Below, in pieces: positions 43,685 through 61,462 of a stretch of 64,000 nucleotides of DNA (the stretch's first letter is position 1; each line of letters opens with the position of its first letter). The position numbers and the translations under genes are program-made. The notes under the pieces were generated by a model, which worked only from the letters and a program-made list of their open reading frames with translations, was not told where the DNA came from and did no database searches. This DNA is from Asanoa sp. WMMD1127. Lineage in GTDB: Bacteria; Actinomycetota; Actinomycetes; Mycobacteriales; Micromonosporaceae. The stretch is taken from NCBI RefSeq assembly GCF_029626225.1, contig NZ_JARUBP010000001.1, forward strand, positions 992,001 through 1,056,000, read 5' to 3'.

Positions 43685-43690
43685 ACTAGG
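43685..43690. repeat. Target site duplication, left
   Basis: ACTAGG directly abuts the left end of the IS element and is repeated exactly at 44806-44811. The CTAG core is a known preference of IS481-family elements. Confidence 0.85.
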
Positions 43691-44726
43691 TGTGCTGCCC
43701 AGCGAGGTTGGTCAACCTGGTGATGGGTGGTAGGCCGCCGATCGCGGTGTGGGGTCGGTGGTGATTGTAGTGATGCAGGAAGGCCGGTAAGGCCTTCCTG
43801 CGGGCCTGTTCGCTGGTGTAGAGCCGGGCCAGTGCCCAGCCGTCGGTCATCGTGCGGTGGAACCGTTCGACCTTCCCGTTGGTCTGCGGCCGGTAGGGGC
43901 GGGTCTTGCGTGGGCGGATGCCCAGTTGGATGCAGGCGTCGCGCCAGGCGTGGGACTTGTAGGCCGATCCGTTGTCGGACAGGACCCGTTCGACGGTCAC
44001 ACCGCGGGCGGCGAACCACGCCACCGCGTGGCGCAGGACGTCGATGGCGGTGGCTGCCTTCTCGTCGTCGCGGATCTCGGCGTAGGCGACGCGGGAGTGG
44101 TCATCGATGACGGTGTGGACGAACGCGGTCCCGACTCTCGGTTCCCATTTCGCGTTACGGACCCCGGTGCGCTGGGCGGTGGCCTCGCGGTTGCGGTCGC
44201 CCTGGCGGCGCCCGACGAAACGCCAACCGCCCCCGTCGGGGACGTTCCCGTACTTCTTCACATCGACGTGCAGCATCGCCCCGGGATGATCGTGTTCGTA
44301 ACGGCGGACAGGTTCCCCGGTGACCCGATCTATGTGGGTCAGCCGGTTGACCCGGCAGCGGACCAGGACCGCCTACACGGTCGAGGCCGCCATCGCCAGC
44401 TTGGCGGCGATCTGGACCGGTCCGAGACGGCGTTTCAACCGCAGGTGCACGATCGTGCGGACCAGCGGCTGCGGCGTGCGCGTCGGGCTGCGGTGCGGCC
44501 GGCTCGAGCGGTCCTGCATACCGGCCTCACCCGCGGCGTGGTACCGGTCAACCCACCGTTTCGCGGTCCGGTACGACACGTCGAACCGCCGCGCGGCCGC
44601 GGCGATCGTCCAGCCCTGCTCGACCACCAGCCGGGCCAGTTTCAGACGTGCTATCGGAGTCAAAGCTGCGTTAGCGTGTGCCACGAGGCCTCCAGTCAAC
44701 GTGAAGCGGTTCTTCGACAGCTCCAC
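43686..44726 (-). pseudogene. IS481-family transposase, interrupted by amber stop
   Basis: The frame codes for 346 codons. Part 1 (44726-44376) is the helix-turn-helix half (LARLVVEQGWTIAAAARRFD). It ends at TAG (44373-44375); reading continues in the same frame into part 2 (to 43686), the DDE half: HVDVKKYG, LSDNGSAY and GKVERFHR carry the catalytic Asp, Asp and Glu. Only this single nonsense codon breaks the gene. The final TAG stop lies in the target duplication, not in the element. Confidence 0.9.
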
Positions 44727-46155: not shown

Positions 46156-47043
46156 TTACTGGAACTGCACCGGCCCCACCTCGCGCGGGTTGCGCGCCAT
46201 CTCCTCCAGCCGCCGGACCCGGTCGGCCATCGGCGGGTGGGTGGAGAACAGCTTCGCGATGCCCGCACCGCTGAGCGGGTTGGCGATCATGAGGTGCGCG
46301 GTCCGGGTGTACTGGTTGTCAGCCGGCAGCGGCAGCTGCCGCGCGCCGGCGTCGATCTTCCGCAGCGCGCTGGCGAGGGCCAACGGGTCGCGGCTGAGCG
46401 CGGCGCCGGAGGCGTCGGCCTGGTACTCCCGGTTGCGGCTGATCGCCAGCTGGATGATCGACGCGGCGAACGGGCCGAGCACCAGCATCGCCAGGAACAC
46501 CGCCGGGTTCGGGGCGTCGTCATCGTCGCCGCCGCCCAGCGGCACGAACCAGGCCAGGTACGCCAGGAACGTGATCATGCCGCTGATCGCCGCCGCGACG
46601 CTGGAGATCAGGATGTCGCGGTTGTAGACGTGCGACAGCTCGTGGCCGATCACCGCCCGCAGCTCGCGGTAGTCGAGGATCTGGGTGATGCCGGTCGTGA
46701 CGCAGACCGCGGCGTGCTGCGGGTTGCGCCCGGTGGCGAAGGCGTTGGGCTGCATGGTCGGGCTGACATATAGCCGCGGCATCGGCTGCCGGGCGTCCGC
46801 GGCCAGCTCCCGCACCATCTGGTAGAGCGCCGGGAACTCCGCCTCGCTGACCGGCTGGGCCCGCATCGACCGCAACGCGATCTTGTCAGACCAGAAGTAG
46901 CTGGCACCGTTCATCAACAGCGAGATGATGAGCGCGATGATCAAACCGGACGTGCCGGAAACCGCGAAGCCGATGCCGAGAATGAGCGCTGTGAGCAGGC
47001 CAAGAAGCGCGGCCGTCTTGAGGCCGTTGTAATGCCTGTGCAA
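46156..47043 (-). CDS. htpX: Membrane zinc protease HtpX
   Basis: 295 residues of the M48 family. HELSH (134-138) gives two zinc ligands and the active Glu; REYQADASGA (E206) gives the third ligand. Two N-terminal spans precede the catalytic domain and two more lie between the motifs. The start is TTG, with AGGAGG eight bases upstream. HtpX degrades damaged membrane proteins. Confidence 0.94.
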   Translation of the reverse strand: MHRHYNGLKTAALLGLLTALILGIGFAVSGTSGLIIALIISLLMNGASYFWSDKIALRSMRAQPVSEAEFPALYQMVRELAADARQPMPRLYVSPTMQPNAFATGRNPQHAAVCVTTGITQILDYRELRAVIGHELSHVYNRDILISSVAAAISGMITFLAYLAWFVPLGGGDDDDAPNPAVFLAMLVLGPFAASIIQLAISRNREYQADASGAALSRDPLALASALRKIDAGARQLPLPADNQYTRTAHLMIANPLSGAGIAKLFSTHPPMADRVRRLEEMARNPREVGPVQFQ

Positions 47044-48188: not shown

Positions 48189-49676
48189 TCAGCGGGCGGA
48201 CCAGTCCAGGACCAGTTGGGGGGCGAAGCCGATCGCCACCGCGAAGGCGGTGGCGATCAGGAGCACGCCGGCCACCGGCCAGGCCACCGGGCGCGAGGGG
48301 CGGTTCAGGGGGTCGGGCGCATAGAGGAGAGCGGCCACCCGGACGTAGTAGGCCAAGCCGATCACCGCGTTCAGGGCGACCACGACCGCGAGCCAACCCG
48401 AGGAGCCGGTGAGCAGCGAGCGGACCACGGCGACTTTCGCGAAGAGTCCGGCCAGGCCCGGGGGCAGCCCGGCCAGGCCGATCAGGGCCAGCGCCAGCGC
48501 CGCACCGATCCAGCGGTGCCGGCGGGCGGCGCCGCGGTAGGAGTCCAGGCGGCCGCCGTCGGCGGTGGGCTCGCGGAGGGCGACCACGGCCGCGAACGCC
48601 GCCAATTCGAGGACCACGAAGAAGACCGTGTAGGCCACCGCCGCGGTGACCGCCGTCGAGGACGCCGCCGGAGTGCGGCCCGAGGCCAGCGCGAGCGCGC
48701 CCAGCGGCGCCAGGATGTAGCCCGCCTGGGCCACCGACGACCAGGCCAGCAGCCGGGTCATCCGGATCTGTCGCAGCGCCACCAGGTTGCCGACCGTCAT
48801 CGTCAGCACGGCCAGCGCCGCCAATAGCGGGCCGGTCACCGCCGGCGGCAGCGCCACCGTCACCACCGCCAGGATGGCGACCACGCCGCCCAGCTTCGAC
48901 GCCGTCGACAGGTAGGCGGCCACCGGCAGCGGCGCGCCGTCGTAGGTGGCCGGCGCCCACGCGTGGAACGGCACCGCCGCCACCTTGAAGGCCAGCCCCA
49001 GCACCAGCAGCGCGATGCCCACCGAGGTCAGCGGCAGGTCCAGGGCGCGCACGGGAGCACCGCCGGCCAGCGAGACGTCGCCCGTCAGGGCGGGAAGCAG
49101 GGCGGCCAGGTGGAGGCGGCCGGTCACCGCGTAGAGGATGGCGGCGCCGAGCAGGGAGACCGCCGTCGCGACCACGCTGACCACGAAGAACGTAACCGCG
49201 GCCGCCGCGCTCTCCATGGTCTGCCGGCGCAGGCCGACCAGGACGTACAACGGGAGGGTCAGGGTTTCGAGGGCGACGATCAGCGTGATCAGGTCGCCGG
49301 CCGCGGCCAGAACCACGCCGCCGGTCATCGAGCACGCCAGCAGGAAGCAATATTCGCCCGTGGGCGCCACGCCCGCCCGCAGCAGCGGCGCCGACAAGCC
49401 GAGGACGCCCAGGGTCAGGAAGCCGAAGACGGCGGCGACCAGGGCCGACCGGTTGGTCAGCAGGTAGGAGCAACCGTCCGGCAGGCAGAACGTCGACCTG
49501 TCGCCGCCGGCCCCGACGACGATCGCGACCACCGCGGTCGCCAGCGCGCCACCGGCGGCCACCGCGAGCGTCACCACCCGCCGCGCCACGAACAGGTCGG
49601 CCAGCAGGACCAGCACCGCCGTACCCGCGGCCAGGTAGCCCGGCAGCAGCGCGACGTTGTCGACCGCCTGGGTCAC
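48189..49676 (-). CDS. nuoN: NADH-quinone oxidoreductase subunit N
   Basis: 495 residues, GTG start overlapping nuoM by four bases. Antiporter-like proton-pump subunit of complex I. It keeps the pump residues: Glu in ALETLTLPLYVLVG and Lys in LAFKVAAVPFHAWAP, with TASKLGG downstream. It ends the nuoI-N run. Family length is normal. Confidence 0.93.
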   Translation of the reverse strand: MTQAVDNVALLPGYLAAGTAVLVLLADLFVARRVVTLAVAAGGALATAVVAIVVGAGGDRSTFCLPDGCSYLLTNRSALVAAVFGFLTLGVLGLSAPLLRAGVAPTGEYCFLLACSMTGGVVLAAAGDLITLIVALETLTLPLYVLVGLRRQTMESAAAAVTFFVVSVVATAVSLLGAAILYAVTGRLHLAALLPALTGDVSLAGGAPVRALDLPLTSVGIALLVLGLAFKVAAVPFHAWAPATYDGAPLPVAAYLSTASKLGGVVAILAVVTVALPPAVTGPLLAALAVLTMTVGNLVALRQIRMTRLLAWSSVAQAGYILAPLGALALASGRTPAASSTAVTAAVAYTVFFVVLELAAFAAVVALREPTADGGRLDSYRGAARRHRWIGAALALALIGLAGLPPGLAGLFAKVAVVRSLLTGSSGWLAVVVALNAVIGLAYYVRVAALLYAPDPLNRPSRPVAWPVAGVLLIATAFAVAIGFAPQLVLDWSAR

Positions 49677-51190
49677 CGCGTCACCGCCTCGATCAGGGCC
49701 TGCACCGGCGCCTCGGACAGGCCGAGCACGAGCGCCGGCACCAGGCCGACGACGAGCGCGAGCACGACCAGCGGCGACCAGGCCACGAGTTCCATGCCGC
49801 TGAGCCGGACCGGCGCCGCGGACGAAACCGCGGGTGAGGCCGCGCCGTGGGTGACCTTGCGGAGCAGGCGCAGGAAGTACGCCGCGGTCAGCGCGCCACC
49901 GATCGCCGCCAGCACGCCCAGCGTCACCCAGCCGGCGCCGCCCCGTTCGAACGCCGCGACCACCGCGAACGCCTCGCCCCAGAACCCGGCCAGCCCGGGC
50001 AGCCCGAGCGACGCGATCGCGGCGAAGGCCAGCAGCCCGGACAGCCACGGCGACCGCTCCCGCAGCCCGCCGAGCACCGCCAGGTCACCCGTGTGGAACC
50101 GGTCCTTGACCGCCCCAGCGAGGAAGAACAGCAGGCCGGTGATGATGCCGTGCGCCACGTTGCCGATCAGCGCGGCCTGGATGCCGGTCGCGGTCAACGT
50201 CGCGACGCCGAGCAGCACGAAGCCCATGTGGCCCACGCTGGAATAGGCGATCAGCCGCTTGAGCTCGGTCTGCGCGAGGCACACGAGACAGCCGACCAGG
50301 ATCGCGGCGACGGCCAGGGCCCCCAGCAGCGGCGACGCCCACCGGGCGCCCTCGGGCGCGACGCCGACCGCCACCCGGATCAGCCCGTAGGTGCCCATCT
50401 TCAGCAGCACGCCCGCCAGCAGCACGCTCCCCACGGTCGGGGCCTGGGTGTGCGCGTCGGGCAGCCAGGTGTGCAGCGGCCACAGTGGACTCTTCACCGC
50501 GAACGCGATCGCCAGCAGCGTAAAGGCGGCGAGCTGGGTGGTGCGGCTCAGCGTGACCGCGCCCGAGGTCAGCGTGACCAGGTCGGCGGTGCCGGCCGCG
50601 GCGACCACGGTGAACACGCCGACGAGCAGCAGCACCGAGCCGAACAGGGTGTAGAGGGCGAACTTGCGGGCCGCGTGCCGCCGCTGGTCGCCGCCCCAGC
50701 CGGCGATCACCGCGTACATCGGCAGCAGCACGACCTCGAAGAACACGAAGAACAGCACCAGGTCGAGGGCGAGGAACGTGCCGAGCATGCCGACCTCGAC
50801 GACCAGCAGGAGGGCGACCAGCGTGTTGCCCCGGCCGCCGGACGGCACATGCCAGAGCGTGTAGAGGCAGCAGAGCAGGGTCAACAGCGTGGTCAACACG
50901 ACCAGGGGGTACGAGACGCCGTCGACGCCGAAATGCAGCCGCAGGTCGAGCGCCGGCACCCAGGACGCGTCGACGGAGGCCCATGGCACGATCGGCGGCG
51001 CGTTGACAGTCGGCATGTAGCTGAACCAGGCGCTCGGGTGCGACAGCGCGCCGAGCAGCACGCTCGCCACCAGCGCCAGCGCGGCGAACCCCGCGCCGCA
51101 CCACCGGCCGGCCCGGTCGGGCAGCAGCGCCGCCCCCACCGCGCCGGCGGCCGGCAGGGCGAGCACCGCGACCAGCAGAGCGTCGCTCAT
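49673..51190 (-). CDS. nuoM: NADH-quinone oxidoreductase subunit M
   Basis: 505 residues from ATG at 51190. Antiporter-like subunit with Glu in FFEVVLLPMYAVIAGWGG and Lys in AVKSPLWPLHTWLPDAH, both needed for proton pumping. It overlaps nuoL by three bases and nuoN by four. Confidence 0.94.
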   Translation of the reverse strand: MSDALLVAVLALPAAGAVGAALLPDRAGRWCGAGFAALALVASVLLGALSHPSAWFSYMPTVNAPPIVPWASVDASWVPALDLRLHFGVDGVSYPLVVLTTLLTLLCCLYTLWHVPSGGRGNTLVALLLVVEVGMLGTFLALDLVLFFVFFEVVLLPMYAVIAGWGGDQRRHAARKFALYTLFGSVLLLVGVFTVVAAAGTADLVTLTSGAVTLSRTTQLAAFTLLAIAFAVKSPLWPLHTWLPDAHTQAPTVGSVLLAGVLLKMGTYGLIRVAVGVAPEGARWASPLLGALAVAAILVGCLVCLAQTELKRLIAYSSVGHMGFVLLGVATLTATGIQAALIGNVAHGIITGLLFFLAGAVKDRFHTGDLAVLGGLRERSPWLSGLLAFAAIASLGLPGLAGFWGEAFAVVAAFERGGAGWVTLGVLAAIGGALTAAYFLRLLRKVTHGAASPAVSSAAPVRLSGMELVAWSPLVVLALVVGLVPALVLGLSEAPVQALIEAVTR

Positions 51191-53046
51191 GTCGCACTCC
51201 CGTAGAGCGCCGCCGCGAGCCCGAGCACGAGCACGCCGGCCAGCAGCGCCGTCGCCGCGCGCGGCAGCCCGGCCCGGTGCCAGGCCGCCAACCGGTCGCC
51301 GGCGTCCGCGGTGCTCTGGCCCGTGCCTTCCACCGCCCCGTCGACCACCCGCTGATCCGTGGCGGACACACCCCGGGCGAGCGCCACGACGGGCCGCACG
51401 ACCAGCCAGGACTGCACGTTGTCGAGCCAGAACGCGTGGTCGAACGTCGACCGCAACGGGCCGAGATAGCGGGCCGGGTCGGCCGCGGTGTCGCGCCGCC
51501 ACAGCGCCCACACCAGCCCGACCCCGACCACCAGCATCGCCAGCGGCAGTGCGGTCTCGGCGCCGAGGTGGGCCAGCGACGTCTCCGGCAGGTCGACCAC
51601 CAGCGGGGTGAGCCGCTCACCGAACCCGTCGGCGAACGCCAGCAACCCGAGCAGCGCGCTGGGCACCGCCAGCACGAGCACCGGCACCGCCATCGGCCAC
51701 GGCGGCTCGTGGGCCGACTCCGCGCCGGCCGAACGGGGCGCGCCGAAGAACGTCCGCAGCCAGAGGCGGCCCGCGTACCAGGCGGTGACGAGGACCCCGG
51801 CGACGCCGACGCCGTAGACCACGCCCGGCAGCCAGCCCGCGTCGGCCGACGACGCCGCGTGCAGCACCGCGTCCTTGCTCCAGAACCCGGCCAGCGGCGG
51901 CAGCCCGATCAGCGCGCCGAGCCCGATCGTCATCGCCCAGAACGTCCCCGGCATCCGGCGCCGCAGGCCGCCCATCGCCGACATCGAGTTGCTGCCCACG
52001 GCGTGGATCACCGAACCGGCCCCGAGGAACAGCAGCGCCTTGAACGCGGCGTGGGTGAGCAGGTGGAACAGCGCCACCGCGGGCGCGCCGACGGCCAGCG
52101 CGGCCGCCATGTAGCCGATCTGCGAGACCGTCGACCAGGCCAGCACCCGTTTGATGTCGTCCTGCGCGGTCGCGGCGAACGCCCCGATCAGCACGGTGAT
52201 CACGGCCATGACGCCGAGCACCACCAGCGCCGGGTCGCCGAGCACGAACACCGGGTAGAGCCGGGTCACCACGTAGATGCCGGCGGCCACCATCGTGGCC
52301 GCGTGGATCAGCGCGGAGATCGGGGTCGGGCCGGCCATCGCGTCGGGCAACCAGGTGTGCAGCGGGAACTGCGCGCTCTTGCCGGCGACCCCGGCCAGCA
52401 GCAGGAGCGCGGCCGCGGTGACGGTGGCGGCAGGCAGGCCGGGCAGCGCGACCAGCACCTGCGTGATCCAGAAGCTGCCGGCGTTGACCCCGAGCAGCAC
52501 GATGCCCAGCAGGAAGCCGATGTCGCCGACCCGGGTGACCAGGAACGCCTTCACCGCCGCCCGGGGCGCCTCGGGCAGCCGCCGGTCGTGGCCGATGAGC
52601 AGGTAGGAGCAGATGCCCATGACCTCCCAGCCGACCAGCAGCAGGATCAGGTCGCCGGCCACCACGACCAGCAGCATCGCGGCGGTGAAGAGGCTGACCT
52701 GGGCAGCGTACGGCGGGTAGCGGTCGTCGTCGTGCAGGTAGGTCGTCGAGTAGACCTGAACGGCCAGCGCGACCACGCCGACCGCCACCGCCACCAGTGC
52801 CGCCGCCTGGTCGATCCGCACACCCGCCGTGACCGACAGGTCGCCGATGCGGACCCAGTCGACGACCGTCTCGAACGGCTCCCCGACCCGCACGGCCAGC
52901 AGGATCGCGACCACGAGGGCCCCGGCCGCGCCGGCGATGCCGACGGAAGCCGCCGCGGTCCGGGACCGCAGCGGCAGGAGGAAACCGGAAAGAGCCGCCA
53001 CCAGGGGTACGACGGGCAGCAGCGGCCCGAGCACGTCGAGGCTCAT
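51187..53046 (-). CDS. nuoL: NADH-quinone oxidoreductase subunit L
   Basis: 619 residues from ATG at 53046. Distal pump subunit. GWEVMGICSYLLIG carries the key Glu, and GKSAQFPLHTWLPDAM the key Lys. The C-terminal part is long, as expected for the lateral helix. Overlaps nuoK by four bases. Confidence 0.94.
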   Translation of the reverse strand: MSLDVLGPLLPVVPLVAALSGFLLPLRSRTAAASVGIAGAAGALVVAILLAVRVGEPFETVVDWVRIGDLSVTAGVRIDQAAALVAVAVGVVALAVQVYSTTYLHDDDRYPPYAAQVSLFTAAMLLVVVAGDLILLLVGWEVMGICSYLLIGHDRRLPEAPRAAVKAFLVTRVGDIGFLLGIVLLGVNAGSFWITQVLVALPGLPAATVTAAALLLLAGVAGKSAQFPLHTWLPDAMAGPTPISALIHAATMVAAGIYVVTRLYPVFVLGDPALVVLGVMAVITVLIGAFAATAQDDIKRVLAWSTVSQIGYMAAALAVGAPAVALFHLLTHAAFKALLFLGAGSVIHAVGSNSMSAMGGLRRRMPGTFWAMTIGLGALIGLPPLAGFWSKDAVLHAASSADAGWLPGVVYGVGVAGVLVTAWYAGRLWLRTFFGAPRSAGAESAHEPPWPMAVPVLVLAVPSALLGLLAFADGFGERLTPLVVDLPETSLAHLGAETALPLAMLVVGVGLVWALWRRDTAADPARYLGPLRSTFDHAFWLDNVQSWLVVRPVVALARGVSATDQRVVDGAVEGTGQSTADAGDRLAAWHRAGLPRAATALLAGVLVLGLAAALYGSAT

Positions 53047-53387
53047 CGGCCCACCCGGGGTTCGTCGAGCTCGCTGGCCGGCGCGGCGTCGAGCCGCACG
53101 GTGTCGACCGCGACGCTGGCCCGCAGCCGGTAGAGCTGGAGCACGATGGCCAGGCCCACGCCCACCTCGGCCGCGGCGAGCACGATCACGAACAGGGCGA
53201 ACACCTGCCCGCCGTGCGGCAGCGTGGCCCGGACCGTGGTGTCGGCGGTGACCAGGATCAGGTTGACCGCGTTGAGCATCAGCTCGACGGCCATCAGCAC
53301 CAGCACCGCGTTGCGCCGGCGGAGCACGCCGTAGACGCCGGCGCCGAACAGCAGCGCGGCCACGACGTAGGGGATGACGGGTCTCAT
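53043..53387 (-). CDS. nuoK: NADH-quinone oxidoreductase subunit K
   Basis: 114 residues, three membrane spans. It keeps the Glu of VELMLNAVNLILV and the second Glu in AAAEVGVGLAIVLQLYR, both in the proton path. About 15 residues longer than usual at the C-terminus. Coupled to nuoJ by four-base overlap. Confidence 0.93.
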   Translation of the reverse strand: MRPVIPYVVAALLFGAGVYGVLRRRNAVLVLMAVELMLNAVNLILVTADTTVRATLPHGGQVFALFVIVLAAAEVGVGLAIVLQLYRLRASVAVDTVRLDAAPASELDEPRVGR

Positions 53388-53887
53388 CGCCGGCTCCCGA
53401 TGTCGGGCCGGGACACGATGATGGCGCCGACCAGCGCTGCGAGCAGGAGCACCGAGAGCACCTCGAACGGCAGCACCCAGGAGCGGAACAGCTCGGTGCC
53501 GATGGCCTCCGCGGTGCCGGGGGCCGGCAGGTCGACCGACGACCAGCGGAACGCGTCGGCGAACAACGCGGCGAGGCCGAGCCCGGCGCCACCGCCGATC
53601 AGCGCGGCCGGCAGGCCCGGCCGGTCGAGGTCGGGCGAGCGGCCGATCGGCGCGCGGGTCAGCATCACCGCGAACAGCAGCAGCACCACGACCGCGCCGA
53701 CGTAGATCAGCACCTGGACCCAGGCCACCAGCTCGGCGGTGAGCACGAGGAACAGGCCGGCCAGCGCGCCGAGGCAGACCACGAGGTAGAGGCCGGCCCG
53801 GACGAGCTGGTCGGTGGTCACCACGAGGACGCCGGAACCCACTGCCACCGCCCCGAGGGCCAGCAGCAGCACGTCGGCGCCGGTCAC
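53384..53887 (-). CDS. nuoJ: NADH-quinone oxidoreductase subunit J
   Basis: 167 residues, GTG start, five membrane spans. [17 protein letters not shown] matches the conserved span with the pi-bulge region. It overlaps nuoI and nuoK by four bases each. Confidence 0.92.
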
Positions 53888-54423
53888 CTGGGCGCCCTGG
53901 AGGGTGGCTCACCGCCGGCGCGCTTGGCCGCGGTCGCCTCCTCCTTGGCCGGTTCGCCGTTGGGGTCGTGCGCGGGCGGCGGCGGGACGGTGTCCATCCA
54001 CTCCCCGAGCCGGTCCTTGTCGTGCAGCAGGTCGCGGATGTCGTATTCGGCGTACTCGAACTCGGGCGACCAGTAGAGCGCGTCGAACGGGCACGCCTCG
54101 ATGCAGATCCCGCAGTACATGCACAGTGAGAAGTCGATGTCGAACCGGTCGAGCACGTTGCGCTGCCGGGCCCGGGCGGCGCCCGGCACGACGACCTCTT
54201 CCTTGTGCGAGTCGATGTAGATGCACCAGTCGGGGCACTCGCGCGCGCACAACATGCACACCGTGCAGTTCTCGGTGAGGAGGGCGATCACGCCCCGCGA
54301 GCGTGGCGGAAGGTCAGGCGCCACGTCCGGGTACTGGTGGGTGTGCGAACGGCGGGTCATCGTCTTCAACGTGACGGCCAGCCCCTTCGCCAGCCCTTCG
54401 CCGGGTACGCCCATGCCTGACAT
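53884..54423 (-). CDS. nuoI: NADH-quinone oxidoreductase subunit I
   Basis: 179 residues with two complete [4Fe-4S] motifs: C53, C56, C59, C63 and C101, C104, C107, C111. This ferredoxin-like subunit carries clusters N6a/N6b between the hydrophilic and membrane arms. It begins the nuoIJKLMN run on this strand; a terminator hairpin lies before it. Confidence 0.95.
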
Positions 54424-54481
54424 CCTGCCGCTAACGCGACGCGAGCGCGAGACCGGATCGATCTATCGGCGGGCGCGCCAC

Positions 54482-54516
54482 GCAAACAGGACGCCCGGAT
54501 GGGGCGTCCTGTTTGC
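54482..54516 (-). terminator. Terminator upstream of nuoI
   Basis: A perfect 15-bp stem (GCAAACAGGACGCCC at 54482-54496 with 54502-54516) and a 5-base loop, 24 bases after the stop of the unknown gene at 54541. It separates nuoI-N from the genes upstream. Confidence 0.9.
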
Positions 54517-54540
54517 CGGGGAGGGTTGGTGCCAGCGACC

Positions 54541-55290
54541 TCAGGCGGGGCCGCCGCCAGTCAGGCCCCATTGCTCTTGGACCGGGGCCGGATGGTAGTA
54601 GTCGTCACGGTTGACGAATTCGACCGGCAGGCCGCCCGGGAGGGCGACGCCGCGCTGCGGGTCGGTCAGCTCGTCGAGCAGCAGGGCCGAGCCGGCCCGC
54701 AGCTGCAGCGCGTCGCGGTCGCGCGGCGAGAGCTCGACGATGTCGGGGTTGGTCAGGCGGAACCCGGCGATCGACCGGCGGATGCTGAGCGCGAGCTCAC
54801 GCCCGTCGCCGGCGACGCCGCCGGAGAGCATCAGCGCCGGGCGCCGGTTGGAGCGCATCGAGTCGCAGACGATCAGCACGCCCTGCGGGCCCGGGGCCGG
54901 CAGCAGGTGCAACCGCCATGGCCACTGCCAGAGGATCTGGCCGGTGGCCACCCGGGTCCCGCCGCCGAGGGCGGGGCGCCGGCGGGGCCGCGGACCGAAC
55001 GACACCGAGCGGTGCCGCGGGCCGCCGACCCGGGCGAGGTCCCAGTCGTCGCAGACGTAGGCCAGCCGGCGGTCGGTGATGGTCACGTCCGCGTGCCGCG
55101 GCAGCGTCCACCGGCGCTCGGCGTGCCCGCCGGACGCGATCAGGTAACCGGCGACGTTGACCTGGCCACGCCAGAGCGGCTGCTCGCCGGGCTCGAGGAC
55201 GACGGCGCGGTGCCGGTCGAGGACGGGACCGCTGTCGTCAGTCGGGTCGTCGAACCGGTACGGCTGGATGAAGAAGGGTGTGGCGGTCAT
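54541..55290 (-). CDS. Unknown protein, possible GRAM/PH-like fold
   Basis: 249 residues, no signal peptide or membrane span. Middle strands (EQPLWRGQVNVAGYLI; RWTLPRHADVTITDRRLAYV) resemble GRAM/PH-like lipid- or membrane-associated domains, a weak impression only. It lies between the response regulator and nuoI and is followed by a terminator. I cannot assign a function. Confidence 0.7.
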   Translation of the reverse strand: MTATPFFIQPYRFDDPTDDSGPVLDRHRAVVLEPGEQPLWRGQVNVAGYLIASGGHAERRWTLPRHADVTITDRRLAYVCDDWDLARVGGPRHRSVSFGPRPRRRPALGGGTRVATGQILWQWPWRLHLLPAPGPQGVLIVCDSMRSNRRPALMLSGGVAGDGRELALSIRRSIAGFRLTNPDIVELSPRDRDALQLRAGSALLLDELTDPQRGVALPGGLPVEFVNRDDYYHPAPVQEQWGLTGGGPA

Positions 55291-55386
55291 CGGGACGGGG
55301 CCTCCAGGGTGAGGAACCTGTCACCATGTTGGCTTCGCCGCCACGCTGTGTCATGACAGTCAACCGGGGGTCGGTCGATCGGCGGG

Positions 55387-56082
55387 TTATTGCGATGGCC
55401 GATCGGGTGACGCGTATGACCGGTACGTCCCGATCTCCTCGGGCCGGATCAGCCCGTCCTCGATTGCCCGCGCGAGCAGCGCCGACTTGGTCGCCGCCGG
55501 CCGGCCGGCGCGGGCGTACTTGATCCGCGCCCGGTCCACGTACTGCTTGACGGTGTGCTCGCTGATCTGCATGCGCTTGGCCACCGACGCCTTCGACATC
55601 GACTGGAACCAGAGCAGCAGCGCCTCACGCTCCTTGTCGGACAGTGCCGGCCGGGTGCTGCGCCGGTCACCGACCATCGCGCCGGCCAGCGACGGCGGCA
55701 CGTAGGGCCGGTCGGCCGCCGCGGCCAGCACCGTCTCGACGCAGTGGTCGCGCCCCTCGTGCTTGGCCAGGAAGGCGACCGCGCCCGCGTCGAGCACGGC
55801 CAGGATCGTCGACGGCTCGTGGTGCTCGGAGTAGACCACCACCCGCTGGCCGGCGGCGCTCAGCTCGCTGACCTTGTCGACCACCATCCGCCCGTGCAGG
55901 CGCAGGTCGAGCAGGATCACGTCGGCCGGGCCGGCGGTCAGCACGGCGTCGACGTTGTCACCGGTCGCGACCACCTCCAGCCGCGGGTCCGCGGACAACC
56001 AGGAGCGGACGCCTTCGAGTACGACGGGGTGGTCGTCGACGATCGCGACCGCGACCCGTGCGCCTCCCAGCCCGTACGTCAT
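55387..56082 (-). CDS. Response regulator, LuxR/NarL type
   Basis: 231 residues. Receiver domain with VDDHP, phosphoacceptor Asp59 (ILLDLRL) and the Lys of FLAKHEG, then a LuxR HTH (ISEHTVKQYVDRARIKY). I choose ATG at 56082, which overlaps the stop of the upstream gene by four bases; ATGs at 56094 and 56109 are also possible. Likely partner of the kinase at 57199. Confidence 0.9.
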   Translation of the reverse strand: MTYGLGGARVAVAIVDDHPVVLEGVRSWLSADPRLEVVATGDNVDAVLTAGPADVILLDLRLHGRMVVDKVSELSAAGQRVVVYSEHHEPSTILAVLDAGAVAFLAKHEGRDHCVETVLAAAADRPYVPPSLAGAMVGDRRSTRPALSDKEREALLLWFQSMSKASVAKRMQISEHTVKQYVDRARIKYARAGRPAATKSALLARAIEDGLIRPEEIGTYRSYASPDRPSQ

Positions 56083-57209
56083 GCCGCCCGCCATCGTGTC
56101 TGCGCCCATAGAAGTTCCTCGTCCCGCTCGTACCAGTAATCCACTGTGCCGTTCATGTCCCAGGAGAAGGACTCCTTGGCCGGTCCGGCCGTCGCCGGGG
56201 TGGTGAGGCTGACCACCACCTCGTCGGGCTGCGCCACCACCGTCACCCGGGCCCAGTCCCGCGCCGTCGCCAGCGTCGCGGCCAGCGGCTCGGCCAGCCG
56301 GCGGCGGATCGCGACGTCGAGCTCGGGCAGCTCGCCCACGGCGATCAGGTCGACCGGCACGCCCTGCCGCTCGGCCACGTCGACGCAGGCGCGCAGCTCG
56401 TGCAGCAGCGGGTCGGGCACGTCGTCGGACTCGGCGATCAGGCGCCGGAGCCGGGCGGCGGCCAGCGCGCAGGCCCGCTGGACGTCGGGCTCGGCCGGGT
56501 CGGCGCGGCCGGTGGCGAGGTCGTGCAGCAGCGCCCCGGCGGCCTCGGAGACGATCCCGAGCCGCTCCTGGCGTTCCCGTTGGGCCTGCACCGCGCCGAG
56601 GCGCTCGGACTCGAGGGCCGCCCGCTGCGCCTCCTGCGCGGCCGCCCCGCGTGCGGTCTCGCGCAGGGCGCCCATCGCGGCGACCAGCGCGATCGGCAGG
56701 ACACCGGTGCCGTAGATGTACATCACGAACCGGCTGAGGTCGATCGCGCCCTCGCCGTCGGCGCTGGCGTTGACGACGCCGATCAGGCTGACACCGGCGT
56801 TGGCGACGAGCACGCCGACGAGCTGGCCGACGCCCTTGTCGTAGAGCAGCAGCACGGCGAACCAGCCGATCGTGCCCCACGCCCAGTTGCCGCTGTGGAA
56901 GATCAGGTCGCCGGGGCTGACGGCGATGACCAGCACGTCGACGATCAGCAGCACGGCGAGCAGCGGGTAGACCGGCACCGCGAACCCGTAGAAGAGGCGG
57001 GCCGTGGCGAGCACCCCGACAACGATGAACAGCACCCAGCCGGCGGCGGACGCCCACGGCACCGTGTAGTCGGTCCAGGCGCCGGCGATGCCTGGCACGT
57101 TGACCGCGAAGTGCCAGCCGAACGCGATGCCCACGGCCGCGAGGCGGCCACCCCGGTCGGCGGTGGTGACCACGGCGGCCCGCGCGGTCAGCAGCCGTTC
57201 AGTGGACAT
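56079..57209 (-). CDS. Degenerate histidine-kinase-like membrane protein
   Basis: 376 residues. About five or six spans in the first 185, then a coiled coil (RETARGAAAQEAQRAALESE) and a kinase-like C-part with H229-D230 in LLHDLATG. The N-box is lost (LATARDWA instead of xNxxxHA) and no G-boxes are visible, so ATP binding is unlikely. It overlaps the kinase gene by 11 bases and the regulator by four. Probably a sensory partner of the true kinase. Confidence 0.7.
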   Translation of the reverse strand: MSTERLLTARAAVVTTADRGGRLAAVGIAFGWHFAVNVPGIAGAWTDYTVPWASAAGWVLFIVVGVLATARLFYGFAVPVYPLLAVLLIVDVLVIAVSPGDLIFHSGNWAWGTIGWFAVLLLYDKGVGQLVGVLVANAGVSLIGVVNASADGEGAIDLSRFVMYIYGTGVLPIALVAAMGALRETARGAAAQEAQRAALESERLGAVQAQRERQERLGIVSEAAGALLHDLATGRADPAEPDVQRACALAAARLRRLIAESDDVPDPLLHELRACVDVAERQGVPVDLIAVGELPELDVAIRRRLAEPLAATLATARDWARVTVVAQPDEVVVSLTTPATAGPAKESFSWDMNGTVDYWYERDEELLWAQTRWRAA

Positions 57210-58482
57210 CGACCCACTCCAGCTGGATGCGGGTGCCGTTGCCGGGTGCGGTGTCGATCCGGGCGGTGGCCCCGACGGACGCCATCCGCGCCATGATCGA
57301 CTCGCGGATGCCGTAGCGGTAGGGCGGGATGGCCGCCATGTCGAAGCCGGGGCCCACGTCGATCACCTCGACGACGACGGACTCCCGGGTGCGGTGCAGG
57401 CGCAGCCAGGCGACGGCGCCCTCGGCGTGCCGGACCACGTTGGACAGTGCGGCGTCGGCGCTCTCGGCGATCGCGTCGGCCACGGCCGAGGGCACCAGGC
57501 ACGGCTCGAGCGCCGCGGTCAGCGGGTAGCCCTCGAAGCGCTCGACGATCACCCGGAGCCGCTCGTCGAGGGAGATCTTGGCGCCCGGGTCGAGCGGCGT
57601 GCGGCGGGCCGGATCGAAGAGGGTACGCAGATCGCTGGCCGCCCGGGCCCGCAGCATCGCCGACTGGGTGGCGACACCGCCGAGGCCGACCATGGTCAGG
57701 GTGGACAGGACCGTGTCGTGCAGGTCGCGGTTCTGCTTGCGCTCGGCCTCGCGGGCGGCCCGCGAGATCACCGCCTCCCGGTGGGTGGCCTGGTAGGCGG
57801 TGAAGACGCTGTCGGCCGCGCGGGCGCTGCGCCGCGTCAGGTAGACCAGGCCGGCGGCCATGAACGTCTGCACGACCAGCACGACCGAGTGGCTGATGGC
57901 CTCGCCGGTGTCGCCCGCGAGCAGGGCGCCGGTGCAGTACGCGATCGCGATGACGAAGCCGAGCAGCATCCCGTGGACGACCCGCAGCGCGAACTGCGCG
58001 GTGATGATCGAGGTGCTGGCCAGCACCGCAACCCAGCTCACGCCGCCGGGCATCACATCCGGCGAGACCAGGACCCGCATCGCGAGGCAGGCGACGATGG
58101 TCAGCGCCACGTCGATCAGCACCGTCCGGGCCTGGATGCCGTTGTCGACGGTCTGCCGGTAGAACACGTAGGACCAGATGGTCAGCGCCACGACGGCGAT
58201 CGCGAGCGGCACCGCCTGGACCGGCGGCTCCCGCACGGCGAGCGCGACCACCGCGACGGCGATGCCGCAGCTGAGGCGGATGGCCGCGGGAAACAGCGCG
58301 TAGACCCGGGCCAGGGCGACGCCGGCGGGGTTGAAGGTCGGAGCGGCCGGCGGCGGCTCGGGCAACGGCGCCAGTGGGATCGGTTCGGGCCTCAGCCACG
58401 GCCGGTCGGGCGGCCCGGAGTGCGGCCGCCGGAGGCTGTGGTTGGGCACCGACGCACCCAGACGCGTGTCGATGCGGGCCAT
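57199..58482 (-). CDS. NarL-type sensor histidine kinase
   Basis: 427 residues: Pro-rich N-terminus, about six membrane spans (60-215), then a HisKA_3 box NRDLHDTVLSTLTMV with H255, an N-box SNVVRHA (N348) and G1 box DVGPGFD (375-381). The H-box Asp is kept. Signal unknown. First gene of the kinase/kinase-like/regulator set. Confidence 0.9.
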   Translation of the reverse strand: MARIDTRLGASVPNHSLRRPHSGPPDRPWLRPEPIPLAPLPEPPPAAPTFNPAGVALARVYALFPAAIRLSCGIAVAVVALAVREPPVQAVPLAIAVVALTIWSYVFYRQTVDNGIQARTVLIDVALTIVACLAMRVLVSPDVMPGGVSWVAVLASTSIITAQFALRVVHGMLLGFVIAIAYCTGALLAGDTGEAISHSVVLVVQTFMAAGLVYLTRRSARAADSVFTAYQATHREAVISRAAREAERKQNRDLHDTVLSTLTMVGLGGVATQSAMLRARAASDLRTLFDPARRTPLDPGAKISLDERLRVIVERFEGYPLTAALEPCLVPSAVADAIAESADAALSNVVRHAEGAVAWLRLHRTRESVVVEVIDVGPGFDMAAIPPYRYGIRESIMARMASVGATARIDTAPGNGTRIQLEWVDVH

Positions 58483-58529
58483 TCAACCACGCAATGCGAG
58501 CGTCCGGTCGCCGCAGGGTTGCCTAAAAA

Positions 58530-58937
58530 TCAGGCAGGAGGCAACATTTCGACGCCTAGCTGCTGGAGCAGCTGGAACAGTTCGTTGACGCTCCAGACGT
58601 CGGCGATCAGGCCGTCGGCGTCGAAGCGCAGGAAGGTCGCGCCGGAGTAGCTGACGACCGTGCCGGTCGGGGGGACCGGGCCGAACTGGCCGAGCTGCGT
58701 GCCGGCGGCCCGCCAGTGCACGGCCGCCCGGTCGGCGCTGACGACGAGGTCCACGATCTTGTAGCGGAGGTCCGGAAAGGACGCCCGGCGCTCCTGGTGC
58801 CAGGCGAGCACGCCGACCGGGCCGCTGGCGCCGAGGCCCGGGCAGTCCGGCGCGATCAGCTCGTACGCCGTGGCCTCGTTGGCGCCGTTCCAGACGTCGG
58901 CGATCAGCCGCCGGACGGCGGACTCGTGATCGCTCAC
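58530..58937 (-). CDS. SnoaL-like / NTF2-fold protein
   Basis: 135 residues, GTG start at 58937 overlapping the nuoH stop by four bases. The fold pattern (AVRRLIADVWNGANEATAYELIAPD; HQERRASFPDLRYKIVDLVV; GLIADVWSVNELFQLLQQLG) is that of the SnoaL-like family. Catalytic residues are not obvious. Coupling to nuoH suggests co-expression; a role in the respiratory complex is unproven. Confidence 0.78.
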   Translation of the reverse strand: MSDHESAVRRLIADVWNGANEATAYELIAPDCPGLGASGPVGVLAWHQERRASFPDLRYKIVDLVVSADRAAVHWRAAGTQLGQFGPVPPTGTVVSYSGATFLRFDADGLIADVWSVNELFQLLQQLGVEMLPPA

Positions 58938-59893
58938 AGCGCCACCCGGACGGCGGCGGTGAGCACCAGCTGGCCCAGCGACACGGGCACCAGGACGAGC
59001 CAGCACAGCCGCTGGAGCTGGTCCTCGCGCAGCCTCGGGTAGGCGACCCGGAACCAGATCACCACGAACGCGACCGCGAAGATCTTGACCAGGGTCCACA
59101 GCCAGCCGAGCTGGTCGTCGAACGGGCCCTTCCAGCCGCCGAGGAACAGCACCGTGGTCAGCGCCGCGATCACCACGATGCCGACGTATTCCGCGAGCAG
59201 GAAGAACGCGAACCGCAGGCCGGTGTATTCGGTCATGTAGCCGAACACCAGCTCCGAGTCGGCGATCGGCATGTCGAACGGTGGCCGGCGGATCTCGGCG
59301 AGCCCGGCCACGAAGAACACCACCAGCGCCGGCAGCTGCCAGAGCAGCCACCACGGCCGCCAGGCCTCGACGATGCCGGTCAGGCTCAGCGTGCCGGCCG
59401 CCATCGCGACGCTGGCCGCGGCGAGCACCATCGGCAGCTCGTAGCCGAGCAGCTGGGCCGCGCCGCGCAGGCCGCCGAGCAGGCTGTATTTGTTGGCCGA
59501 GGCCCAGGCCGACATGAGCACCGCGACCACGCCGACGCCGAGCACGGCCAGCACGAAGAACAGGCCGACGTCGAGGTTCTGCCCGACCAGGTCGCCCGGC
59601 CCGAGCGGCACGACGAGCAGCACCAGCAGGTAGGGCACCAGCGCGACGAGCGGGGCCAGCCGGAACACGGCACGGTCGGCGGCGGCCGGCGTGACGTCTT
59701 CCTTCTGCACGAACTTGATGCCGTCGGCGATCAGCTGGGCCCAGCCGTGGTAGGCGCCCGCGTACATCGGGCCGAGCCGGCCCTGCATGTGCGCCATCAC
59801 CTTGTGCTCGGTCTGGCCGACGACCAGCGGGAGGACCAGGAACGCGGCGACGACGCCGACCACGCGCACGAGGACCTCGAGCCAGAGTGGCAT
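58934..59893 (-). CDS. nuoH: NADH-quinone oxidoreductase subunit H
   Basis: 319 residues from ATG at 59893 (MPLWLEVLVRVVG), which overlaps the nuoC stop; an ATG at 59908 gives five more. Eight spans. WAQLIADGIKFVQKEDVTP and IRRPPFDMPIADSELVFG match the quinone-site loops, though the usual PEAE acidic pattern is PIAD here. It couples the hydrophilic arm to the membrane arm. Confidence 0.92.
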   Translation of the reverse strand: MPLWLEVLVRVVGVVAAFLVLPLVVGQTEHKVMAHMQGRLGPMYAGAYHGWAQLIADGIKFVQKEDVTPAAADRAVFRLAPLVALVPYLLVLLVVPLGPGDLVGQNLDVGLFFVLAVLGVGVVAVLMSAWASANKYSLLGGLRGAAQLLGYELPMVLAAASVAMAAGTLSLTGIVEAWRPWWLLWQLPALVVFFVAGLAEIRRPPFDMPIADSELVFGYMTEYTGLRFAFFLLAEYVGIVVIAALTTVLFLGGWKGPFDDQLGWLWTLVKIFAVAFVVIWFRVAYPRLREDQLQRLCWLVLVPVSLGQLVLTAAVRVAL

Positions 59894-60462
59894 CAGGCCG
59901 GCCCCCATTCACCCGGAGCGGGTACGCCCGGCGGCCGCATCGGAGCCCGCTTGCTGGTGCCGGCCTCGCTCTCCCCCGGCTCCTTGGCGCCCGGCCAGGC
60001 CTTGGCGACCCGGGCCGCGAGCACGAACTCCTTGCGCAGCGGATGGCCCTCGAACTCGGGCGGCAGCAGCAGCGGCCGCAGGTCGGCGTGGCCGGCGAAG
60101 TCGACGCCGAACATCTCGTGCGTCTCGCGCTCGTGCCAGGCGGCGCCCGGGAAGATCGGCACGACCGTGTCGACCACCGGCTCGGTCCGCGGGACCCGGG
60201 TGCGCAGCAGCACGCCGTGCTTGTGGGTGGTCGACCAGAGGTGGGCGACGATCGCGAAGCCCTCGTCGAGCTCGTCGACGGCGGACAGCCAGTCGAAGAA
60301 GTCGCAGGCCAGCGCGGCGTCGTCGCGGGCGACCCGAGCCGCCTCGGCCCAGCCGGCGGCCGGCACGTCGACGGTCGCCCGGGCGTGGTCGTTGCCGCCC
60401 GAGACGGAGGCCTCGCCGGTGACCAGCTCGGTCAGCCGGGCTCCGATCTCCTCCGGGGTCAT
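59893..60462 (-). CDS. nuoC: NADH-quinone oxidoreductase subunit C
   Basis: 189 residues. The 30-kDa subunit signature HERETHEMFGVDFAGHADLR is at 110-129. A Pro/Gly-rich tail follows. It starts the locus; the gene to its right is divergent. No nuoA, nuoB or nuoD lies on either side. Confidence 0.93.
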   Translation of the reverse strand: MTPEEIGARLTELVTGEASVSGGNDHARATVDVPAAGWAEAARVARDDAALACDFFDWLSAVDELDEGFAIVAHLWSTTHKHGVLLRTRVPRTEPVVDTVVPIFPGAAWHERETHEMFGVDFAGHADLRPLLLPPEFEGHPLRKEFVLAARVAKAWPGAKEPGESEAGTSKRAPMRPPGVPAPGEWGPA

Positions 60463-60484
60463 GCGGAGATCCTAGGCTTTCGGC

Positions 60485-61462
<978 letters not shown>

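Follow-up and report, generated by a model that had tools for sequence, protein, structure and literature searches.

A nuo locus of Asanoa sp. WMMD1127 is probably the largest fragment of a second, scattered complex I-like gene set

The 64,000-nucleotide window analysed here (C1:992001-1056000) belongs to the 7.97-Mb genome of Asanoa sp. WMMD1127, which is assembled in three contigs. It carries an incomplete cluster of nuo genes for complex I, running on the minus strand from the end of nuoN at 48189 to the start of nuoC at 60462, exactly as an earlier note on this sequence had delimited it. The cluster consists of nuoC, nuoH and nuoI to nuoN, all intact and all with products above the Pfam cut-offs (NuoI through its Fer4 domains). 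NCBIfam assigns the same subunit names, mostly under its curated cut-offs, which marks the window set as divergent. In the translations, the Glu and Lys residues of NuoK, NuoL, NuoM and NuoN, at what we take to be the pump positions, and the cysteines of NuoI are kept. Five intervening genes separate the nuoH and nuoI modules. Genome-wide Pfam searches place no NuoA, NuoB, NuoD or NuoF match inside the window, and neither NuoE nor NuoG was recognised among the frames from 42000 to 64000 or in the next 10 kb, where no dedicated E/G search was made. The terminator that the note had described between the modules was not recovered, as a consensus scan of 53800-60700 returned a single site, located in nuoH, against a chance expectation of 0.9.

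A genome search for further nuo copies found a canonical nuoA-N operon and three orphan genes, nuoA2, nuoB2 and nuoD2. The canonical operon at ~1.43-1.44 Mb consists of 14 gene calls in nuoA-N order, with A, B, D, F and H identified by Pfam and the remaining subunits by reading. Genome-wide copy counts, which cover A, B, D, H and F, give two NuoH genes (the window copy and the canonical-operon copy) and one extra complex-I-type copy each of NuoA, NuoB and NuoD beyond the operon. A third NuoB-like match was set aside as the small subunit of a [NiFe] hydrogenase, judged by the adjoining large subunit, itself recognised by reading. The orphans fill the apparent gap at the window locus. As a whole, the full list of 11 subunits (A, B, C, D and H-N) is encoded as second-set genes, and the second-set A, B, C, D, H and I are 35-50% identical to their canonical copies. 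NuoB2 keeps the four N2 cysteines in alignment with canonical NuoB, and NuoI2 keeps eight cysteines by reading; we take these to be the cluster ligands. The single NuoF lies inside the canonical operon, and on this count (second copies of E and G were not searched) the second set differs from 14-subunit complex I in having no NADH module of its own. The window locus is very probably the largest part of a second complex I-like set with 11 subunits (A2, B2, C2, D2 and H2-N2), whose genes are scattered over four chromosomal places (Table 1). The idea that it complements a second locus elsewhere stands in so far as genes elsewhere complete it; the canonical operon need not lend them, since the set has its own A2, B2 and D2.

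Table 1 Features of the second nuo set and its surroundings. Positions are those of the window unless a contig prefix is given.
Feature	Position	Strand	Match or remark
nuoC2	59893..60462	(-)	PF00329, 130 bits; 36% identity to canonical-operon NuoC
nuoH2	58934..59908	(-)	PF00146, 344 bits; 42% identity to canonical NuoH
SnoaL-like protein	58530..58940	(-)	PF07366; overlaps nuoH2 stop
Histidine kinase	57199..58482	(-)	PF02518; inserted between nuoH2 and nuoI2
Membrane sensor-like protein	56079..57209	(-)	No recognised ATPase domain, no Pfam match; overlaps neighbours
LuxR-type response regulator	55387..56109	(-)	PF00072 + PF00196
Protein without Pfam or NCBIfam match	54541..55290	(-)	
nuoI2	53884..54423	(-)	Fer4 families; both 4Fe-4S motifs and N-terminal stretch present
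nuoJ2	53384..53887	(-)	PF00499
nuoK2	53043..53387	(-)	PF00420
nuoL2	51187..53046	(-)	PF00361, PF00662
nuoM2	49673..51190	(-)	PF00361
nuoN2	48189..49676	(-)	PF00361
htpX	46156..47043	(-)	PF01435; conserved neighbour of the set
nuoB2	C1:1083008-1083541		Pfam; outside canonical operon, 32 kb from nuoH2
nuoD2	C1:2348862-2350004		Pfam; outside canonical operon, 1.3 Mb from nuoH2
nuoA2	C1:2557087-2557464		Pfam; outside canonical operon, 1.5 Mb from nuoH2
Reduced loci of relatives			L083, L086, L106, L107, L108; L087 cut by contig end

The comparison with related genomes, which the note had likewise advised, covers 61 genomes (our own and 60 relatives), with presence and absence compiled from hit tables and Fisher values that ignore kinship. 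Second-set matches stand apart from canonical ones in percentage identity for H (74-100% vs ~40-50%), D (61-100% vs 35-43%), A (54-100% vs 28-46%) and B (66-99% vs 47-53%), the last separation failing in the divergent reduced forms described below. A2 and H2 occur together in 39 genomes and are both missing in 21, with a single genome holding one only (G049, 82% complete). D2 and B2 are both present in 44, both missing in 14 and found singly in three, and D2 and H2 are both present in 38 and both missing in 15, with D2 only in seven and H2 only in one (G007). A2, B2, D2, H2 and a MidA-type methyltransferase are jointly missing in genomes such as G018 and otherwise mostly retained together. In a NuoD tree of 54 rows (17 NuoD1, 37 of the 38 NuoD2 treated below), the two kinds fall on opposite sides of one branch (100/100). 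In a sample of 197 genomes of the class, 76 have NuoD2 at E values up to 1e-100. A NuoD2 relative of 47-52% identity was observed in G090, G125, G141 and G153, assemblies of 1.0-1.7 Mb that are 60-100% complete, so the second set or a reduced form of it may survive in small genomes. In G014 (L073), nuoD2 and the canonical nuo operon are on opposite strands, with ~7 kb between nuoD2 and the operon start.

The most prominent differences between the two sets are seen in NuoD. We compared 38 NuoD2 sequences, 18 from our genome and 17 relatives and 20 from class-sample genomes chosen among the 76 D2-bearing ones to span families, with 17 NuoD1 sequences (own and 16 relatives). RHDW (RFDW once) stands in 38/38 NuoD2 vs R[MA]DY in 17/17 NuoD1, and HRG in 38/38 vs HTG in 17/17, placing arginine instead of threonine beside cluster N2. 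Alignment with solved 49-kDa subunits locates one altered position in the HRG motif and the other at the RLDY tyrosine, which we take to be the quinone ligand Tyr87 of T. thermophilus; the roles of the quinone-site NuoD residues are likewise our assumption. A published simulation set-up treats His38 and Tyr87 jointly with the quinone (PMC7434922). NuoD2 does not carry this pair, as the quinone histidine is kept in all 38 sequences and the tyrosine is replaced by tryptophan. NuoD2 also lacks 41 NuoD1 alignment columns near the C-terminus, and NuoH2 and NuoB2 deviate from the canonical copies at conserved loops, which presumably sit near the quinone path. A group 4 [NiFe] hydrogenase was rejected because our own NuoD2, on reading, contains no CxxC; HDWL presumably occupies the place of the first hydrogenase CxxC pair. 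We found no report of a Tyr-to-Trp change at the quinone site in the literature accessible to us, with most subscription journals outside coverage.

In our genome, nuoD2 overlaps the gene of a PF02636 methyltransferase of the MidA/NDUFAF7 type (L014:8862-11043). Both genes are present in 44 of the 61 genomes, neither in 15 and one only in two (G044 and G041), so that 44 of the 46 holders of either hold both. A MidA match lies <=7 kb from D2 in 15 of 17 D2 loci of relatives and inside the 3-kb flanks in 11 of 20 class-sample loci. The most economical interpretation makes MidA a partner of NuoD2 and not of NuoD1. NDUFAF7 dimethylates the arginine of the HRG motif (HRGXE) (PMC3829151, PMC8042128), at a position where T. 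thermophilus has threonine (PMC3829151), and changing this arginine in Yarrowia abolishes N2 and quinone reduction (PMC8042128). By analogy with the action of NDUFAF7 on NDUFS2, the MidA-type enzyme would modify the HRG arginine of NuoD2 and thereby mature its N2 site, a proposal towards which we lean. As with NDUFAF7/MidA and Arg85 of NDUFS2, a PF02636 methyltransferase goes together with a 49-kDa-type subunit that has the HRG arginine; unlike in that system, the gene here, for a putative methyltransferase, overlaps a second nuoD, in an actinobacterium. The title of a reference cited in PMC8042128 speaks of a proteobacterial origin. No report of MidA paired with NuoD2 was found in the accessible literature, by searches that were not aimed at it in Actinobacteria and with most subscription journals outside coverage.

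Six of the 61 genomes (G041, G044, G045, G057, G058 and G060) carry a reduced locus. In five of them it reads B2-C2-I2-htpX without further gene calls in between, while in G044 the contig ends after C2. Second-set A2 and H2 were not found in these six genomes, where searches returned canonical-type A and H matches only, plus a partial 50% NuoH piece in G060; second-set J-N were not searched genome-wide there. Five of these genomes have D2, which the search did not find in G041 (86% complete). Four of the loci have KorA/KorB as neighbours; no KorA match was obtained in G045 and G058, where the reduced locus stands directly behind the canonical nuo operon. Structurally, the reduced-form NuoI2 starts just ahead of the first cluster motif and is missing most of the N-terminal stretch that full forms have, and the NuoB2 of G057 is without a loop. 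An unrooted tree built from B2, C2 and I2 (22 rows) sets the 16 full forms apart by a branch with 99.2/98 support; its reduced rows are long. We favour loss as the direction of change, in which case the reduced loci would represent a peripheral arm that lost its membrane arm. A form without membrane arm was not met with in the accessible literature, again with searches not aimed at it in Actinobacteria and most subscription journals outside coverage.

In other genera the set is more compact. Named loci were scanned with a NuoC2 alignment among the best 80 of 563 relatives, a scope that holds for all named loci below; they are mostly Streptomyces, with Actinomadura, Kitasatospora, a Salinispora, a Micromonospora and others. 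The 53 loci longer than 20 kb contain B2, C2 and H2 in 53 cases, I2-M2 in 52, A2 and N2 in 51, htpX in 49, KorA in 47 and KorB in 43. The displayed rows usually read KorB-KorA, A2-B2-C2-H2-I2..N2, htpX, without D2, and KorB-KorA-A2-B2-C2-H2-I2..N2-htpX is likely the ancestral layout. No reduced locus occurs among these rows. The NuoH2 of the window is 68-73% identical to Streptomyces/Actinomadura NuoH2, and 85 and 87% identical to that of the Salinispora and Micromonospora loci, vs ~70% for Streptomyces rows. Since Streptomyces and Actinomadura keep the set contiguous except for nuoD2, the arrangement in the window is one of dispersal and not of decay. In the family of our strain, A2 often remains with KorA/KorB, the rest of the set lying elsewhere, and L037, L042 and L043 (three of 20 H2 loci of relatives) have no I2-N2 in the examined stretch. 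In the closed congener G003, H2 is 1.5 Mb away from A2 and 1.3 Mb from D2; the remaining four congeners have A2 and D2 on contigs other than that of H2, which by itself does not prove distance. B2 and H2 are 11-13 kb apart in five congeners vs 32 kb here. Prophage genes (integrase, primase, terminase, head, tail) were seen between the window and nuoB2, from L004:5483 to ~L013:3248 (C1 ~1.061-1.079 Mb).

The five genes between nuoH2 and nuoI2 have a narrow distribution. A SnoaL-like homologue is present in four of the 20 H2 loci, two of those four from congeners, and the kinase, the sensor, the regulator and the gene at 54541..55290 were matched at this place, among the same 20 loci, only in two congeners (L029, L030). 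The kinase, sensor and regulator genes overlap one another. An assembly error is unlikely, since the layout of the window recurs in these two congeners. AbrC1/C2/C3 genes adjoin nuo2 in Streptomyces (PMC9739823). They were rejected as counterparts of the window genes: against L117, a Streptomyces toyocaensis locus whose genes between KorA and nuoA2 were taken as AbrC by place, the kinase is 22-25% and the regulator 26% identical (E 0.003-0.016), the sensor has no match, and three further loci gave no better result. A gene for an SRPBCC-like protein and htpX follow downstream of the nuo genes, and a 2OG-Fe(II) oxygenase gene lies upstream of nuoC2 on the opposite strand. At 43686-44726, on the minus strand, integrase-like and helix-turn-helix-like frames have, by eye, the look of an insertion sequence.

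KorA/KorB lie within ~6 kb of nuoA2 in 19 of 20 A2 regions, which were chosen mainly where A2 is detached. This position of Kor beside nuoA2 suggests 2-oxoacid-derived ferredoxin; for ferredoxin as the donor, we regard the case as evenly balanced. We postulate that the second set most likely encodes a proton-pumping, NADH-independent complex I-like enzyme with a soluble donor such as ferredoxin and an altered quinone pocket. The 11 proteins would assemble into a membrane complex that works independently of NADH. A soluble low-potential donor, perhaps ferredoxin, would feed NuoI2 and NuoB2, electrons would pass at the NuoB2-NuoD2 site to menaquinone in the altered pocket, and the complex would pump protons.

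Several observations weigh against this proposal or parts of it. D2 occurs without H2 in seven genomes, namely five reduced-locus genomes, G049 (82% complete) and G059, and G059 has D2 and MidA, while B2, A2 and H2 were not found. Kor and D2 are both present in 41 of the 61 genomes, with D2 only in four, Kor only in 15 and neither in one; the presence of Kor shows no association with that of the set (Fisher p 1.0, kinship ignored and a weak KorA match in G010 counted absent), and its role as an obligate partner was rejected. The case for Kor as a plausible donor is thus one of position. The earlier suggestion of a ferredoxin-type complex agrees with the missing second NuoF. The divergent reduced-form NuoB2 are 50-53% identical, as distant as canonical NuoB, and were assigned by their neighbours. 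The HRG arginine of E. coli is not dimethylated (PMC8042128), so the arginine alone proves no methylation. The exchange of tyrosine for tryptophan and the changed NuoH and NuoB loops, finally, speak against ordinary quinone reduction. They bear on a reading that we consider unlikely, in which the NuoB2-NuoD2 site acts on another substrate and the full form is coupled to ion pumping. Tryptophan at the quinone tyrosine in 38/38 NuoD2 would fit it, as would reduced loci that keep peripheral-arm genes, with NuoH2/NuoA2 not found, NuoI shortened and NuoB shortened in G057, but the same 38 sequences keep the quinone histidine and NuoH2 retains much of the conserved core. To our knowledge, no alternative substrate of this site has been described. 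A broader version, doubtful though slightly less so, sees the actinobacterial second set as a distinct enzyme of the complex I superfamily, with a Trp site and a MidA-methylated arginine, that may perform no ordinary quinone reduction; some relatives would be reduced to a soluble NuoB2-C2-D2-I2 enzyme without its own membrane arm, a lone peripheral arm.

Sharing with the canonical complex appears improbable. Such a hybrid would lend NuoE, NuoF and NuoG to the second-set subunits as a second NADH-oxidising isoform, or exchange single subunits as in cyanobacteria. The genome does hold one NuoF and a full canonical operon, and a Streptomyces study suggests that NuoL2/NuoM2 exchange into complex I (PMC3765725); yet the second set has its own copy of A, B, C, D, H and I, each 35-50% identical to the canonical one, and some relatives retain second-set B, C, I and D while H2/A2 are not found. 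We give very little weight to the notion that the scattered set is a decaying remnant, no longer functional in this lineage. The dispersed genes and the prophage between nuoB2 and the window could be read that way, but the frames are open, A2, B2, D2 and H2 are 94-99% identical to those of five congeners, and these four and MidA are either lost together, as in G018, or mostly kept together.

Cyanobacterial NDH-1 is a comparable NADH-less system. Closest to the set described here is the second nuo set of Streptomyces, published as lacking the N-module and having a detached nuoD2 (PMC3765725). With that nuo2 set (nuoA2, B2, D2, H2-N2; SCO4599-4608 region) our locus shares the subunits, the missing NADH module and the detached nuoD2, and the 53 long named loci show the same subunits at high identity and the same neighbours, with htpX and KorA/KorB nearby in most. 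Unlike in Streptomyces, where the genes are contiguous bar nuoD2, A2 and B2 are also detached here and five genes stand between H2 and I2. Both our locus and the named loci include nuoC2, which is absent from the published Streptomyces list in the part available to us (PMC3765725). In Desulfitobacterium, a complex I-like enzyme without NADH module has likewise A, B, C, D and H-N without E, F and G, and ferredoxin is proposed as its donor (PMC11238625); there a single operon encodes it, in contrast to the scattered second set beside a 14-gene operon found here. The second set here is also marked by tryptophan in place of the quinone tyrosine. The Streptomyces second set is thus known already; the altered NuoD2 site, the pairing with MidA and the reduced loci were not found in the literature as far as it was accessible.

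The case is a warning that an apparently crippled complex I locus may belong to a complete enzyme whose genes are spread over megabases. Nature has exchanged Tyr for Trp at the quinone site in dozens of divergent genomes, which offers a ready test of the role of this residue. Pairing with MidA provides a bacterial system for the arginine methylation needed by human complex I, and the reduced loci, should they prove genuine, would reveal what an isolated redox arm is able to do.

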